Assembly (NCBI GenBank): GCA_902780505.1
Contig: CACZFN010000005.1
Coordinates: forward strand, 1 to 64,000
Length of the DNA: 64,000 bases
Direction: 5' to 3'
DNA from: an uncultured Ruminococcus sp.
GTDB lineage: Bacteria > Bacillota > Clostridia > Oscillospirales > Ruminococcaceae
The translations under genes and the position numbers were made by a program. Below the pieces are notes generated by a model, which saw only the letters and a program-made list of their open reading frames with translations, did not search any database and was not told the origin of the DNA. Positions 52,700-58,989 of the stretch are shown piece by piece (position 1 is the stretch's first letter; every line of letters starts with the position of its first letter).

Positions 52700-53173
52700 C
52701 TACAATTCACAAACCATTATGTATTCTTCTTCGTTCTCGTCTGCTATATGAAAGCCGACTTTCTCATACATACGCACAGCATAGTTTGCTTTCTGTACTG
52801 CAAGTGATGCTTTCTTGAAGCCTTGTGTCTTCAGAAGCGGGAGCATCTCTTTCATAAGCCTTGTGCCAATGCCCTGAGCACGATAATCCTTGTAAAGTGA
52901 GATGGCGAAAGACGGAGTATCATCATCCACATGGCCATAATCGTCCATGATCCTCGTCCAGACCGCACCGACAACTTTATTATCAATTACTGCGACAAGA
53001 CAGTTGTCTCCCCGTCGAGTTCCAAAATCATCTGTATATACCCTCAGTTCTGGCTTATCGACTATTTCTCTCGGTGGTGGTGTGACACCCTCTGGTATAA
53101 ATATAGCTTCGTAAAGGAACTCCCTTAAAATAGCGATTTCATTGTTTCTTATTGCTCTTATTTCTGCCCGCAT
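52700..53173 (-). CDS. GNAT-family N-acetyltransferase
   Basis: A 157-residue GNAT protein with the acetyl-CoA loop YRAQGIGTRLMKEM near residue 97, followed by KASLAVQKANYAVRMYEKVGF typical of motif B. The N-terminal RAIRNNEIAILREFLYEAIF is the usual first helix region. The substrate is unknown. It lies at the left edge of the accessory region, just past one copy of the flanking ~60-base repeat. Confidence 0.9.
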   Translation of the reverse strand: MRAEIRAIRNNEIAILREFLYEAIFIPEGVTPPPREIVDKPELRVYTDDFGTRRGDNCLVAVIDNKVVGAVWTRIMDDYGHVDDDTPSFAISLYKDYRAQGIGTRLMKEMLPLLKTQGFKKASLAVQKANYAVRMYEKVGFHIADENEEEYIMVCEL

Positions 53174-53551: not shown

Positions 53552-53779
53552 TTATACGCCCAGATGCTTTTCAAATACTGCCATGATTTCTTCGACACGC
53601 TTATCGCAAATACCCTTGATCTGACGGAGATCTTTCTCAACCTCCCGGAGATCGATGGACTTGCCGTCTTTCTCCAGCAATCCGTCAGTGTAGCGCATCA
53701 GGAAGGCTTGAAGCTCCTCACAACTCATTTTCTTTATCGCACTATAGGTGTCTCGGTCGATAATCTTCAGTTTTGCCAT
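53552..53779 (-). CDS. Small conserved-looking protein of unknown function
   Basis: A 75-residue charged helical protein beginning MAKLKIIDRDTYSAIKKMS. The balanced charge and lack of membrane segments suggest a soluble protein. A TATAAT-like box lies ~50 bases upstream on the minus strand. I cannot assign a family; similar short proteins occur in mobile regions. Its divergent neighbour is the R-M operon. Confidence 0.5.
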   Translation of the reverse strand: MAKLKIIDRDTYSAIKKMSCEELQAFLMRYTDGLLEKDGKSIDLREVEKDLRQIKGICDKRVEEIMAVFEKHLGV

Positions 53780-53920
53780 AGAATACAGTTTTTTTATTAT
53801 TCCGTGCGATTTTTTATTTGCGTTTTTTTAATTATAACATAATTATGCTGGAAAATCAATATTTCGATTGCAGATATAAGTGTTAAGAATAAAATGTTTG
53901 ACGATAATAATGAAGTTGCC

Positions 53921-53949
53921 TTGACTAAATAACGTAATTATGCTATAAT
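53921..53949 (+). promoter_or_regulatory. Promoter of the R-M operon
   Basis: TTGACT (53921-53926), 17-base spacer, TATAAT (53944-53949) with an extended TG. Confidence 0.85.
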
Positions 53950-53955
53950 GAATAT

Positions 53956-53981
53956 AATTCAGGCCGAATCTGGCCTGAATT
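53956..53981. promoter_or_regulatory. Perfect inverted repeat at the R-M operon start
   Basis: AATTCAGGCC and GGCCTGAATT (10-base arms, 6-base spacer) begin seven bases after the -10 box. The position fits an operator, perhaps for the small AbrB-like protein encoded next, or a leader hairpin. Confidence 0.65.
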
Positions 53982-54009
53982 CAGGAGGAACTATACGGAG
54001 AATAACGAA

Positions 54010-54186
54010 GTGCTTTTAGAAAGAAATATGTTGCAAAAAGATTTACGAATTCGTCTGCCAAAGCAGATATTAACCAATCTTAATATTACTATTGGTAAAG
54101 AGTTAGATATTTATATTGACACTCTTAAACAAGAAATCATAATTCGTAAAAGCAAAGAAACCGTTAATAATACACAGAAAGTATAA
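54010..54186 (+). CDS. Small AbrB/MazE-like DNA-binding protein
   Basis: A 58-residue protein that starts with GTG nine bases after GGAG (53997-54000); an ATG at 54028 is possible. It reads KDLRIRLPKQILTNLNITIG and then KELDIYIDTLKQEIIIRK, the swapped-hairpin SpoVT-AbrB fold with the R-x-x-x-P-K motif. Such proteins are transcription regulators or antitoxins. It is the first gene of the operon, before two DNA methyltransferases, so it may control the restriction-modification genes in the way C proteins do. No toxin gene is adjacent. Confidence 0.78.
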   Translation: MLLERNMLQKDLRIRLPKQILTNLNITIGKELDIYIDTLKQEIIIRKSKETVNNTQKV

Positions 54187-54209
54187 TTGTTAGAGGTGAT
54201 AAAAAGTAA

Positions 54210-54995
54210 ATGATACTTGACCACATTTTTAACTCTACAAGTGAGAATATGTCCGATATCCCGGATGAATCTGTTGATCTTGTAGTTACATCACCTCCAT
54301 ATAACATCGACATTCAATACGGAAATAAAACTGAAAAAGGCAGCATTCTTGAAAGCAAAGGAATAAAATATGCCGATAAAATGGATGAAGAAGATTATAG
54401 AAAAATGCTTCTATCCGTTTTCTCCGAATGCAAACGAGTAATTAAGAAAAATGGATCAGCATGGGTTAACATAAAGAATAGATATGATAACGGAATTGTT
54501 ATTCCTCCATTTTGGCTTCTTGAGATGTTTCAAGATATGTATCTGAAAAACCTTATAGTCTGGAATTTCGACTGGGGTGGTTCAACAAACAAACGCTTTG
54601 CACCCAGATATGAATTTGTATTTTGGTTTGTTAAAGACAAGAATGATTATACATTTAATCTTGATGACATTAAAATTCCAGCTCTAAACTATAGGCCGGA
54701 TAGATATAAAAGTCAATTAAAGAACCCAACGGATGTTTGGCGTATTTCCATGGTTTCTGGTAATTTTGAGGAAAGAACATCTCATCCTGCTCAATATCCT
54801 GAAGAATTGATTGAACGAATTGTTCTTGCTGGAACAAATAAAGGTGATATTGTTTTAGATCCTTTTATGGGAAGCGGCACATCTGCAGTTGTGGCAAAAA
54901 AACTCGGCAGACATTATCTTGGCTATGAAACTGTTCCGGAATATTGCCAAATTGCTGAAGAGCGCTTATCAAGAGTTTCGGAGGATAGAGTATAA
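54210..54995 (+). CDS. Site-specific DNA methyltransferase, beta class, first of pair
   Basis: A 261-residue amino-methyltransferase (N6-adenine or N4-cytosine). Motif order is beta: catalytic TSPPYN at residues 27-32 first and the SAM motif DPFMGSGT at 217-224 last. A small target-recognition region lies between. Codon use is AT-richer than in the housekeeping genes nearby. It is followed after two bases by a second methyltransferase of the same length. Two methyltransferases plus nuclease genes suggest a non-palindromic target with one enzyme per strand. Confidence 0.93.
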   Translation: MILDHIFNSTSENMSDIPDESVDLVVTSPPYNIDIQYGNKTEKGSILESKGIKYADKMDEEDYRKMLLSVFSECKRVIKKNGSAWVNIKNRYDNGIVIPPFWLLEMFQDMYLKNLIVWNFDWGGSTNKRFAPRYEFVFWFVKDKNDYTFNLDDIKIPALNYRPDRYKSQLKNPTDVWRISMVSGNFEERTSHPAQYPEELIERIVLAGTNKGDIVLDPFMGSGTSAVVAKKLGRHYLGYETVPEYCQIAEERLSRVSEDRV

Positions 54996-54997
54996 TA

Positions 54998-55783
54998 ATG
55001 AGTGAGATCTTTTATAAGATTGGTGATTGTAGAGAGCTTTTGAAAGATGTACCAAGTCAATCAGTAAAACTGGTGGTAACATCACCGCCATATAATATTG
55101 GTAAGCCTTATGGAAAGTATTCTGATAAGATGCCACTTGAAGAATGGAAAGAACTAATCAGAGCTGTAACAAAAGAAGTGTATAGAATATTGACACCAGA
55201 TGGAAGCTTCTTTTTAAACCTTTCTCCTGTTCCATATGGAAAGGATAAAGAAATCCTGCCTTTGCCGTTCATCGGGTATGAAATCATGCAGGAGTGTGGA
55301 TTACACCTGAGAAACATGATAACATGGACTTTTAACAATATGCAGAATTGTACAAACAGATTATCAGGTCGATATGAGAATATCCTATGGGGAGTGAAAG
55401 ACCTGAGTAACTATGTTTTCAATTTAGATGATATTCGTATTCCATATATAACCCAAAACGATAAACGTCTTGAAGGTGGAAAAGGCAGAAATCCTACAGA
55501 TGTATGGTATTTTGACCGTGTAAACAACATGACAAAAAAGAAGCTTGGCTTACAGCATCCTACTGTATATCCGCTTCCAATGATCATGAGGATTCTGCAA
55601 ATGTCAAGCAATCCGGGGGATACAATACTCGATCCTTTTTTAGGCAGTGGATCTTCACTTGTGGCGGCCAAACTGCTTGACAGAAACGGAATAGGATTTG
55701 AATTGGATGCAAAGTATGTTGACGAAATTGAAATGAGATTAGCACAAGAAGGGGTAAGACAATTATCTCTTTTTGAGAATTGA
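54998..55783 (+). CDS. Site-specific DNA methyltransferase, beta class, second of pair
   Basis: A 261-residue paralogue of the previous gene with TSPPYN near residue 29 and DPFLGSGSS near residue 220. Outside the motifs the two differ, mainly in the middle, consistent with different target strands. The shared phrase YVFNLDDIRIP / YTFNLDDIKIP shows common origin. It ends one base from the nuclease gene's ribosome site. Confidence 0.93.
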   Translation: MSEIFYKIGDCRELLKDVPSQSVKLVVTSPPYNIGKPYGKYSDKMPLEEWKELIRAVTKEVYRILTPDGSFFLNLSPVPYGKDKEILPLPFIGYEIMQECGLHLRNMITWTFNNMQNCTNRLSGRYENILWGVKDLSNYVFNLDDIRIPYITQNDKRLEGGKGRNPTDVWYFDRVNNMTKKKLGLQHPTVYPLPMIMRILQMSSNPGDTILDPFLGSGSSLVAAKLLDRNGIGFELDAKYVDEIEMRLAQEGVRQLSLFEN

Positions 55784-55791
55784 GGAAATGT

Positions 55792-56562
55792 ATGTTATAT
55801 CAAGAATTATTAGATTCATGTCGTGATCGCTTTGATGAATTTTTTCAAAACGTACCTATTTTTCATAATCAGTTCAGGTGGAATGAATATAATAATGCCT
55901 GCTACCAATTGATGTATTCTGAATATTTGGAAGATAGTATTGCCACCGTAAAAGAATTGAAATCAAAAATTCCGGAACTCACAGACTTGTGTAAGCAATG
56001 CGGTTCCTTCTTCATTCCAGCAAGAAATAAGAGCCTTCCCAAATATGATGTAATAATGGGACAACAGCACGAAGAAGCTCTTATGAAATATCTTTCACAG
56101 AAGCTTAATACTGAAGTATGCCGTGCTGATCTTGAAGATCGCAGTATGCCTGATTGTAAAGTATTAAAGTCTGATGGCACAGTGGCTGCTTATTTTGAAG
56201 TGAAGTTTCATGGAGCCCCGTTTGTTTGCGCGTTGCAAAAGACCGGAAGGTATTGTTATGAAGGAAGTGCCACACTGGATTATAAAAAAATAGAAAAACA
56301 ACTTGGAATAATCGAAGGATTAGAGGCCCCGGTATTCTATGTTCATTGGATTGAATATCCATGCTTAAAAGGTGTATTCTACGAGACAAGTGATCAGGTT
56401 AAGCAATACATTGCTGAACAACATGAAACATTTGAAAGAGAAAAACGTGAAGGCGATGAAATGAAATCAGCTAAAGCTGTCTATTTGAAAAAGATGTATT
56501 CTCCACTTCTGCAAATGAAAGACTTTGAGTCTTTTGTTACGGAATTAAGTGCCTTACTTTAA
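55792..56562 (+). CDS. Candidate restriction endonuclease, PD-(D/E)XK type
   Basis: A 256-residue protein with no wide family that I recognise. It has a PD-(D/E)XK site: Pro120-Asp121 in MPDCKVL, a turn (SDGT), then Glu136-Val137-Lys138 in YFEVKFHG. The second half has PVFYVHWIEYP and VFYETSDQVKQYI, also seen in the next gene. The ATG at 55792 follows GAGGAAATGT. Position after two methyltransferases makes it the likely cutting subunit of the restriction-modification system. Confidence 0.8.
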   Translation: MLYQELLDSCRDRFDEFFQNVPIFHNQFRWNEYNNACYQLMYSEYLEDSIATVKELKSKIPELTDLCKQCGSFFIPARNKSLPKYDVIMGQQHEEALMKYLSQKLNTEVCRADLEDRSMPDCKVLKSDGTVAAYFEVKFHGAPFVCALQKTGRYCYEGSATLDYKKIEKQLGIIEGLEAPVFYVHWIEYPCLKGVFYETSDQVKQYIAEQHETFEREKREGDEMKSAKAVYLKKMYSPLLQMKDFESFVTELSALL

Positions 56563-56578
56563 TTGAGAGGTGTTTAAT

Positions 56579-57112
56579 ATGAGTGGTCAAGAATTCATTT
56601 CTTTCTGTTGCTCTCCTACTATGCAACTTCCTTTGGTTATGGATAATGCTGATATCTGTACTTCTGATACTGGCATTATCGACTATTTCATTCAGTACAT
56701 GAAAACGAAATACAAAATTAATATCGTGGCATGGGTGCCATCATCGTGTGCGTATCCCAATTATATGTTTCTTGGCGGCGATAGAGGAATCTTAGCATAT
56801 ATTTCATTTCGATATATTCATTCTCCTTCAAGTATTACATCAGAGGATATAAGTTGGGAAAGCAAAGAGGTCCTGAAAACAGTTCGTGCAGCTACTTCAC
56901 AATTGGACAGGCCCGTATTCTATATTTATCTTATAAATACAGCGGATCGCATCGGAATATACTTTGAAACAGATGAACAGATTCGAGACCGTTGGTTATC
57001 AACCGGTTTTTCATCTGATATTTACACGCCTGTCACAGCAGAAATGGGAGATTTTCAAAACCTATTATCAATTTTACTTGATTTAAAGCGTAACAGTGTA
57101 AAGGTTTCATAA
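56579..57112 (+). CDS. Nuclease-like protein with all PD-(D/E)XK residues replaced
   Basis: A 177-residue paralogue of the upstream nuclease. The aligned segment reads YPNYMFLGGDRGILAYISFR: Asp is Asn61, Glu is Ser76 and Lys is Arg78. The flanking strands match (AYISFRYI with AYFEVKFH; PVFYIYLIN with PVFYVHWIE; IYFETDEQIRDRW with VFYETSDQVKQYI). The N-terminal ~60 residues are shorter. It is therefore probably inactive and may be a partner or specificity subunit of a heterodimer. The ATG at 56579 follows GAGAGGTG. Confidence 0.78.
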   Translation: MSGQEFISFCCSPTMQLPLVMDNADICTSDTGIIDYFIQYMKTKYKINIVAWVPSSCAYPNYMFLGGDRGILAYISFRYIHSPSSITSEDISWESKEVLKTVRAATSQLDRPVFYIYLINTADRIGIYFETDEQIRDRWLSTGFSSDIYTPVTAEMGDFQNLLSILLDLKRNSVKVS

Positions 57113-57117
57113 TATGT

Positions 57118-57165
57118 AATATAGCAAGAGCAGCTGCCTTATCGGACAGCTGCTCTTGCTATATT
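57118..57165. terminator. Strong bidirectional terminator
   Basis: A 19-base-pair perfect stem (57118-57136 with 57147-57165) and 10-base loop between the convergent R-M and TGT-like genes. Confidence 0.93.
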
Positions 57166-58525
57166 AAAGATGCTCAGAGATATATTTCAGCCCAAGGAAC
57201 AGTTTGCTGGGATAAGCTGCTGAAAAGGCATGGATATCTGTATAGTTAGGGAGAATTTCACATAGTTTACGGTGTTGCATTACTGCATGAAGGCCTATCA
57301 ACTGTCTGCTATAATAATTTGCTTCTGAGTTTGTTGATTTCATGGAATACAGTTGCTTTATATTGTGTACTGTCTGAGCCTGCAAACAAGCAGGACAACC
57401 ACATAAAGGCATATCGTCAGGGACTTCGTTCAATTTTATATATCCGGTTTTTTCAAATCTCATGCTATTATCTATATTGATTCCGCCCATAAAGAATTTA
57501 CTGAAACCTACTTTAGATGGAGTTGGATCGAATACAATTCTTGTTGATTCATCACTGCCGTCGCCAACACGTCTAACGGGAGAGGCGGCATCAAAAGATG
57601 TGGCACCACAGTAATAATTGAGTGCAATGTTATTATATCCGCCACATCCTAAAGCATGAATCGGCCTATCTCCAACGAGTTCTCTGACAATTTTGCTTGC
57701 TCTTGCAGGGACGATAGTTTCTATAAACCCACGTTTTCCTATTCGTGATAGATTTATATTATTGTACCAACTTGGATCTACTTGTTTATAGCTTGCAACA
57801 CCGCCAAGAGCAAAGCCCCAAAAGTGAGCATTATACTGTTCTTCCAAGCTAAGATTATATTTTGTGTTTTCGGAATATTCTGCGGGGGTATCACCATGTA
57901 CTGTCGCTAAAACATAAGGATAGAAATCGGGATGCTCTTTGATGTACTTAACTGTAAGTTCAAGCAAAGCATTATTGATATCATTTTTATCAAGCGAAGC
58001 AAGAAATCTCACGAGTCTTGGATTTTTCTTCTCTCCGTCTTTTTCTGTGTATTTGCCGCCTAAATCAAACCCGACAACAATATCGCACTTGATTCTATCT
58101 GCAAAATCATAATATTCAGCGGCAGCTTCAAGAATCCTCTCTCTGAATAAGGCGAGATTGTAATCTACTGACTCTGCAATCTGCTTCATAATATTGTAAG
58201 CACCAGAATCAAGAAGAAACACTTTCTGATTAAAATTATAATCTGGAGAAGAATAGCCACGATAAATCTCACCCTTCTTTATTAAAGAAGCGCGAATGTA
58301 ATTGTACAAGTCACCAACAGTATTGAAGCGTCCGATTTCGTCGAATAGTTTACTGCTAAACGTATGCGGGAATGAATTGTTGATATAGAAGTAATTGATT
58401 AAAGCAGGTGTATTACCGGTTAACTCTGCGTAAACAATTTCTCTGTCTTTGTCACCGTTTCCGCCGCCATAATTGTAAACCTGAAAGAAAGATGGGACTG
58501 GTAGATCTTTTCCGTGAACATTCAT
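57164..58525 (-). CDS. tRNA-guanine-transglycosylase-like protein (TGT/DpdA-like)
   Basis: A 453-residue protein with the TGT barrel landmarks: LLDSGAYN with the substrate Asp at ~106, CDIVVGFDLGGKY near 148, HFWGFALGGVASY near 235, and the nucleophile-region SFDAASPVR with Asp at ~312. A TGT-type zinc site follows (CGCPAC at 375-380 and a later His, 387 or 413). The usual VQGG loop is replaced by ATVHGD, so the substrate likely differs from queuine-tRNA. DpdA proteins that put 7-deazaguanine into DNA share this kind of change. The ATG at 58525 follows AAGGAGG. No queuosine or other dpd gene is nearby. Confidence 0.8.
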   Translation of the reverse strand: MNVHGKDLPVPSFFQVYNYGGGNGDKDREIVYAELTGNTPALINYFYINNSFPHTFSSKLFDEIGRFNTVGDLYNYIRASLIKKGEIYRGYSSPDYNFNQKVFLLDSGAYNIMKQIAESVDYNLALFRERILEAAAEYYDFADRIKCDIVVGFDLGGKYTEKDGEKKNPRLVRFLASLDKNDINNALLELTVKYIKEHPDFYPYVLATVHGDTPAEYSENTKYNLSLEEQYNAHFWGFALGGVASYKQVDPSWYNNINLSRIGKRGFIETIVPARASKIVRELVGDRPIHALGCGGYNNIALNYYCGATSFDAASPVRRVGDGSDESTRIVFDPTPSKVGFSKFFMGGINIDNSMRFEKTGYIKLNEVPDDMPLCGCPACLQAQTVHNIKQLYSMKSTNSEANYYSRQLIGLHAVMQHRKLCEILPNYTDIHAFSAAYPSKLFLGLKYISEHL

Positions 58526-58612
58526 AATAAACCTCCTTAGTAATGCTCTGTTGTTGTCCGTGCCATCTGTCAAAATGTTACTGTATGTCACAGCTTTTCC
58601 GTCTATGTAATA

Positions 58613-58641
58613 ATTTTATCACACTTGTGTGAAATAGTAAA
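58613..58641 (-). promoter_or_regulatory. Promoter of the TGT-like gene with palindrome in its spacer
   Basis: Minus-strand TTTACT (58636-58641), 17-base spacer, TAAAAT (58613-58618) with an extended TG. A perfect 14-base palindrome, TCACACTTGTGTGA (58619-58632), fills the spacer and would block polymerase if bound. Confidence 0.65.
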
Positions 58642-58673
58642 GACCTTTTTCAGATTTCACTAATAAAAGAGGA

Positions 58674-58712
58674 AGGCTCTGCAAGTATCAGTTTAATACT
58701 AAAGCAGAGCCT
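58674..58712. repeat. Stem-loop upstream of the TGT-like gene
   Basis: AGGCTCTGC and AGTAT pair with ATACT and GCAGAGCCT. There is no T-run; role unknown. Confidence 0.45.
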
Positions 58713-58914
58713 ATACATATAATTATTAAACTCTAAAAAAATATATATCTTCAAGCTTTCACAGAGGATATATATACTGATATTGGCAGGATACATTCTT
58801 CTCTAAACGCCAAATGCCTTCATATTTTGTTATAGATGTCTCTAACTCATTTCACATTTTCAATTCACGAAGAGAATATAAATACACTGCAAGGTTTAGG
58901 CGAATATAGCGTTT

Positions 58915-58989
58915 TTAAGTGATTGTCCCTTCGTCCAGATCTGACATCTGCTCAAATATGAAATCCAAGTATTCTTTGCTCGATGCCAT
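58915..58989 (-). pseudogene. N-terminal remnant of a TfoX-domain protein
   Basis: A 24-codon frame reads MASSKEYLDFIFEQMSDLDE and then stops. This is the usual start of TfoX N-terminal domain proteins, which continue ~80 residues further; here no continuation is found. It lies in the 58526-59200 gap, otherwise without genes. Confidence 0.5.

Follow-up and report, generated by a model that had tools for sequence, protein, structure and literature searches.

A TGT/DpdA-like transglycosylase is a fixed part of a mobile restriction-modification cassette in Ruminococcus and uncultured Clostridia

We have analysed a 64,000-nucleotide stretch of DNA from an uncultured Ruminococcus sp. (hereafter the window), part of contig 5 (C5) of a 2.82-Mb draft genome, in which a gene resembling those for tRNA-guanine transglycosylase (TGT) stands beside restriction-modification (RM) genes. 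An earlier note on this DNA, made from the letters alone, had pointed out this neighbourhood, and it was confirmed: the open reading frame (ORF) at 57164-58525 on the minus strand encodes a TGT-like protein of 453 amino acids (aa), next to two DNA methyltransferases (M1 and M2), a nuclease (R) and a paralogue of that nuclease (R'). The TGT-like gene is a co-selected, fixed part of this mobile five-gene cassette. Judged by its sequence, its product appears to be neither a tRNA TGT nor a classified DpdA protein and to form a third deep branch, whose affinity to DpdA is likely but unproven. The locus contains the following features, with coordinates in the window.

57164..58525, minus strand: TGT/DpdA-like transglycosylase, with D106, D312 (nucleophile by homology), H290 and zinc ligands C375, C377, C380 and H413
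54210..54995, plus strand: M1, beta-class DNA methyltransferase with TSPPYN (PF01555 E 7.3e-61; PADLOC MTase_II E 1.3e-60)
54998..55783, plus strand: M2, second beta-class DNA methyltransferase with TSPPYN (PF01555 E 9.2e-50; PADLOC MTase_II E 7.6e-54)
55780..56562, plus strand: R, PD-(D/E)XK nuclease (P124, D125, E140, K142), putative restriction endonuclease
56570..57112, plus strand: R', pseudo-nuclease, a paralogue of R that has lost the catalytic residues (the window has PN...SFR), from an alignment of six R and six R' proteins
54010..54186, plus strand: putative small controller, SpoVT-AbrB/MazE-like, 58 aa, GTG start (PF04014, 27.5 bits against a cut-off of 24.7)
57120..57163, no strand: 17-bp perfect inverted repeat with a loop of 10 bases, placed where the R' and TGT-like genes converge, read from the sequence
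53552..58932, no strand: block of DNA shared with other genomes, from blastn

When relatives were searched for constant neighbours, as the earlier note had proposed, the same five genes (M1, M2, R, R' and the TGT-like gene) were present in all seven genomes found, namely that of the window and those represented by loci L004-L007, L012 and L013 (L007 is R. flavefaciens ND2009). The cassette takes three arrangements. The TGT-like gene and R' converge in the window, L004, L007 and L012; in L013 the TGT-like gene comes after R', in the same direction and overlapping it by 4 bases; in L006 it stands ahead of M1, again in the same direction. The cassette of the L005 genome is split between two contigs, the matches of which meet at window positions 57083/57084, and its R is interrupted. 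Profiles of the TGT-like protein and of R matched the same four of 394 genomes of the order, in four genera; the chance of identical presence under independence is 1e-9, a figure that kinship makes optimistic. No R without the TGT-like gene was found among these 394 genomes, the only set in which it was looked for. The TGT-like gene was matched in 3 of 396 genomes of the family (profile; the samples overlap), 1 of 398 phylum-sample genomes (profile) and 1 of 149 relatives (single sequence), the last two matches both being the window's own genome. Sequence searches of plasmids, phages and viral contigs returned no relative of the TGT-like protein and none of R.

The similarity in DNA has defined ends, at 53552-58932 against L004 and 53554-58543 against L007, and the genes flanking the shared block differ between genomes. 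G+C content is 0.35-0.38 across 54-58 kb and 0.40-0.49 in the other 2-kb steps of the window. The ratio of nonsynonymous to synonymous substitution rates (dN/dS) of the TGT-like gene is 0.115-0.188 in comparisons with four relatives, one of them with saturated dS; the four relatives with names come from Ruminococcus and uncultured Clostridia. It is because of the linkage in seven of seven genomes, the shared presence in four of 394, the block ends and dN/dS that we regard the gene as a co-selected part of a mobile cassette. The interpretation in the earlier note is partly supported: co-inheritance with an RM cassette holds, and the unit is refined to five genes that include a nuclease and a pseudo-nuclease.

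The adjoining DNA methyltransferases of the earlier note were borne out by the PF01555 matches listed above. We assign M1 to the beta class by the order of its motifs, with N4-methylcytosine (m4C) or N6-methyladenine (m6A) as the presumed product. R has a restriction nuclease fold with a catalytic motif; it has no Pfam match above cut-off and none in NCBIfam or PADLOC. The R profile matches R' at E 1.6e-5 (genome G562) and 7.1e-4 (G159), and R', found in all seven cassettes, is possibly a pseudo-nuclease specificity subunit. In the L005 metagenome-assembled genome (G159), R is interrupted at L033 592-1373, whereas the other four genes have open frames; this is either a decaying nuclease or an assembly error. 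The ORF at 54010..54186 presumably has a regulatory role; the same ORF stands upstream of the methyltransferases in L004 and L007, and L012 has a Cro/C1-type helix-turn-helix ORF there (HTH_26, 62.3 bits). The inverted repeat is a probable two-way terminator, although a terminator scan that allowed loops of 3-8 bases does not list it. An ATG at 58525 was preferred as the start of the TGT-like gene over an upstream GTG (475 aa) because AAGGAGG, a strong ribosome-binding site, stands ahead of it at 58538-58532.

A 75-aa ORF (53552-53779, minus strand), which L004 and L007 have as well, lies at the left edge of the shared block; it may be part of the mobile element and not of the RM system. Just beyond the shared block, and outside the conserved block, lies an ORF that reads as GNAT-like (52700-53173, minus strand). 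In other carriers, HamA and HamB of Hachiman (L007 3839-7902) stand directly upstream of the TGT-like gene, and L012 has a further type II RM system near the cassette; partial matches (51-53 bits) to candidate defence proteins occur in L004 and on the contig of the L005 genome.

PF01702 (TGT) is the sole Pfam match for all seven family members, with a best E of 4.9e-6; the window protein alone scores 20.6 bits, under the gathering cut-off of 26.3. Its membership of the TGT superfamily and its TGT/DpdA fold are supported. No relative in the PDB was found by sequence. Three other weak PF01702 matches in carrier genomes (G562 C4 and C13; G1147 C1) were set aside as chance, the ORFs reading as one D-Ala carboxypeptidase-like and two oxaloacetate decarboxylase-like proteins.

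Both TGT aspartates and the zinc site are kept, as the earlier note had stated: D106, D312, C375, C377, C380 and H413 are identical in seven of seven family members, seven of seven host tRNA TGTs and seven of seven bacterial/archaeal DpdAs. The zinc motif is not seen in the phage DpdAs that were aligned. The replacement of the VQGG loop by ATVHGD, also claimed, is present at residues 207-212, where VHG occupies the place of TGT (V/N)QGx. It is not unique, because HG also occurs in that loop in Enterobacter DpdA (AHGW) and in DUF6884-type proteins (VIHGQ), and such a change is not unusual within the superfamily. These DUF6884-type proteins, encoded on Tolypothrix/Trichormus plasmids typed as conjugative (L058, L059 4842-6260), are 472 aa long and annotated only as DUF6884; they contain a TGT/DpdA-like domain with DCGSF, VIHG, HVFG, SFDGST and CxCxxC...H.

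Two further sites resemble DpdA. H290, within PIHALGCGG, is present in all seven family members, and its column holds histidine in 7/7 bacterial/archaeal DpdAs, 2/2 DUF6884-type proteins and 0/7 tRNA TGTs; all 16 phage/plasmid rows share H196 of phage 9g DpdA, and position 196 is the conserved DpdA histidine in the literature (PMC6884629; this and the other papers cited are represented here by excerpts). The nucleophile loop TSFDAASPVRR (TSFDxASP) resembles DpdA TSFDSASPLRR, unlike the FDCVMPSR of tRNA TGT. Against curated models the window protein scores 14.9 bits for TIGR00449 (tRNA TGT; cut-off 47.6) and 11.2 for TIGR00432 (archaeal; cut-off 350). Its scores against our profiles, 10.2 bits for bacterial DpdA, 9.9 for phage DpdA and 1.3 for tRNA TGT, lean weakly to DpdA, and profile comparison gave weak links to tRNA TGT (E 0.0038 over 139 columns) and phage DpdA (E 4.7e-4 over 40). 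Of the DpdA-like base exchange suggested in the earlier note, the sharing of the DpdA histidine and nucleophile loop is supported; neither DpdA membership nor a DNA substrate is established.

Maximum likelihood trees give the TGT-like family a long branch to itself (1.55 and 1.87 changes per column). As to the tree that the earlier note had called for, the family does not group among the tRNA TGTs: the seven host enzymes, the only tRNA TGTs included (those of the carriers, with no archaeal one), form a clade without it in both trees (support 100/99). Approximately unbiased (AU) tests gave p 0.106 for grouping the family with the bacterial, archaeal and DUF6884 types, 0.102 with phage DpdA, and 0.0097 (large set) or 0.135 (small set) with bacterial and archaeal DpdA only. 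A DpdA grouping was thus not rejected in three of four tests and rejected in one, with long branches involved. Four DpdA rows were dropped from the larger tree, two short ones (Monoglobus and a fecal phage) before alignment and two (Faze9 and BUCT006) after it. Two haloarchaeal plasmid proteins annotated as queuine tRNA-ribosyltransferases were classed as DpdA because the bacterial DpdA profile scores them at 378 and 285 bits.

The statement of the earlier note that no queuosine gene is near was upheld in that QueC, QueT, QueA and the normal tRNA TGT of the window genome all lie on contigs other than C5, and the cassette holds no queuosine gene (QueD, QueE and QueF were not searched). All seven carriers have QueA and a normal tRNA TGT. 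A strong QueC match was found in three (the window genome, L004 and L007) and a match above the Pfam cut-off in five. The other two of these (G562 and the L006 genome) score 28 bits and lie in longer frames, and one of them is partial; we took them to be other ATP pyrophosphatases, and if either were a true QueC the case made from transporters would only be easier. No QueC match came from the L005 genome or G532. All four carriers without strong QueC have a transporter, QueT (L005, G562) or Vut_1/YhhQ (L006, G532), and the window genome also has QueT. Each carrier therefore has a means of obtaining a 7-deazaguanine. In two other stretches, phage-type DpdA genes (L046 6085-7391 and L045 1629-2899) adjoin an annotated queuosine-precursor transporter (L046) or vitamin-uptake transporter (L045); the stretches retrieved carry no annotated gene for preQ0 synthesis, and these loci possibly represent salvage-fed DNA modification.

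In TGT chemistry, a nucleophilic aspartate attacks C1' of guanosine, guanine leaves and a 7-deazaguanine is joined instead. The superfamily fold, the co-inheritance of the cassette, the conservation of the residues for catalysis and zinc binding and the presence of a precursor source in each carrier are supported by observation, and on this basis we give about even odds to a compact, mobile, type II-like RM cassette that has recruited a DpdA-like transglycosylase drawing on the 7-deazaguanine pool of the host. M1 and M2 would methylate the two strands of a target that is probably asymmetric, given two methyltransferases and the R/R' pair. R, probably paired with catalytically dead R', would cut unmarked DNA. 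D312 of the TGT-like enzyme would displace guanine from DNA, and preQ0 or preQ1 from the host pool would replace it as a second mark on resident DNA. DNA is the presumed substrate because of the company of RM genes and the DpdA-like residues; the use of 7-deazaguanine, the target sequence and a role in defence are likewise inferred. By analogy with Dpd, in which host DNA bears 7-deazaguanine as a mark and DNA lacking it is restricted (PMC12839542, PMC11888242), the exchanged base may be a self-mark that protects the cell's own DNA. More tentatively, and in our view doubtfully, methylation and guanine-to-7-deazaguanine exchange might act jointly as a new, minimal kind of hybrid epigenetic immunity encoded by a five-gene mobile cassette without que genes or DpdB, its precursor made or scavenged by gut bacteria; the RM proteins may then direct exchange to particular sites, and R' may read the base put in.

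Several findings weigh against a DpdA-like enzyme acting on DNA. In the larger tree the DpdA clade excludes the family (95/86), which falls on the tRNA TGT side, with a warning of long branches. The residues are a mosaic: of 138 family-invariant core columns, 19 agree with both majorities, 13 with DpdA only and 17 with tRNA TGT only (F153, D154 and P288 among them), counts that partly depend on how the gapped region around D148/D154 is aligned. Given these counts and the trees, an assignment of the window protein as a clear DpdA, drawn from the loop and the HxLG region, was dropped. The DpdA models NF041059 (window protein and three relatives) and PDLC02807 (window protein and two relatives) gave no match at E 1. 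The histidine is not universal in DNA-acting relatives, being absent from DpdA2 in the excerpts of PMC6884629, and so is no requirement for acting on DNA. The precursor supply is equally explained by the need for tRNA queuosine, and our counts cover carriers only. The lack of dpd partners stated in the earlier note held for the DndB/DpdB family (PF14072), with 0/7 carrier genomes matched at E 1e-3 and dpdC-K not searched; DpdB is described as driving insertion in Dpd, yet as dispensable in some clusters (PMC12839542). Finally, methylation alone would suffice for self-protection.

Some of the same evidence suits an enzyme that exchanges a base in tRNA or other RNA, for example as a second tRNA TGT altering translation during infection. 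The side taken in the larger tree, the excess of tRNA-TGT-like columns and the retained zinc site all point that way. Against it stand the inheritance of the gene together with DNA methyltransferases and a nuclease, the tRNA TGT and QueA that each host already has, the agreement with DpdA at H290 and the nucleophile loop, and scores far under the TGT cut-offs, and we consider it unlikely. The long branch also fits a reader, specificity or regulatory subunit that performs no exchange but uses the fold to detect 7-deazaguanine or guanine in DNA and so directs R/R', for instance against phages whose DNA carries 7-deazaguanine; R' illustrates that the cassette carries a non-catalytic paralogue, and GrwAB is an existing defence against 7-deazaguanine phage DNA (PMC12137116). 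The invariance of the catalytic and zinc residues and the low dN/dS speak against it, as does the retention of both aspartates, which is not expected of a reader; we consider this role improbable. We think it about as improbable that the protein is a restriction glycosylase, using covalent aspartate chemistry without an inserted base to release guanine and create abasic sites where targets are unmethylated. A class of restriction enzymes that act by base excision is known (PMC10273834) and the cassette has no queuosine gene of its own; R looks intact in six of seven genomes, all carriers have a 7-deazaguanine source, and no glycosylase activity of the TGT fold came up in this analysis. A chance passenger, an ordinary TGT paralogue beside an RM system, would suit the convergent orientation in the window, which precludes co-transcription with the RM genes, and is very improbable in view of the complete linkage across three arrangements and the identical presence in 394 genomes.

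If the DpdA-like enzyme of the cassette does insert 7-deazaguanine into DNA, marking would be achieved with far fewer genes than in Dpd islands of up to eleven (PMC11888242), by one transglycosylase added to an RM cassette, and would combine methylation and base exchange in a single cassette. Marking would depend on a scavenged micronutrient in the four carriers that gave no strong QueC match. The TGT/DpdA family gains a deep branch that is useful for tracing the origin of DNA versus tRNA preference.

Among the papers listed in a survey of open-access literature, judged by titles and abstract openings, we found none on a cassette that combines a TGT homologue, two DNA methyltransferases and a nuclease; this survey left the main Dpd papers uncovered, and a prior description is not excluded by it. 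The nearest published idea found is BREX-related capture (BRC) with TGT and GNAT, for which 7-deazaguanine marking has been proposed (PMC12839542). It is alike in that its defence locus has a TGT homologue and no DpdB/DpdC, and differs in its PglZ, DUF6079, DUF4007, STAND NTPase and HerA/FtsK components (same source). None of these families is among the five cassette genes; PglZ, DUF6079 and HerA/FtsK were not searched genome-wide. Compared with Dpd (S. Montevideo DpdA, PDB 7ui4), the window protein is not matched by DpdA models and falls outside the DpdA clade in the best trees, the cassette genomes have no DpdB-family match, and the partners are instead two DNA methyltransferases and a PD-(D/E)XK nuclease. 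It shares with bacterial tRNA TGT the fold, the aspartates, the zinc ligands and the columns counted above, and differs from it in VHG for (V/N)QG, in the DpdA-type H290 and nucleophile loop and in scores below the TGT cut-offs, in a host with a separate normal TGT. Like type II RM systems with two methyltransferases, the cassette has two methyltransferases, a nuclease and a small upstream regulator; unlike them, it carries a transglycosylase and a pseudo-nuclease as fixed extra parts.
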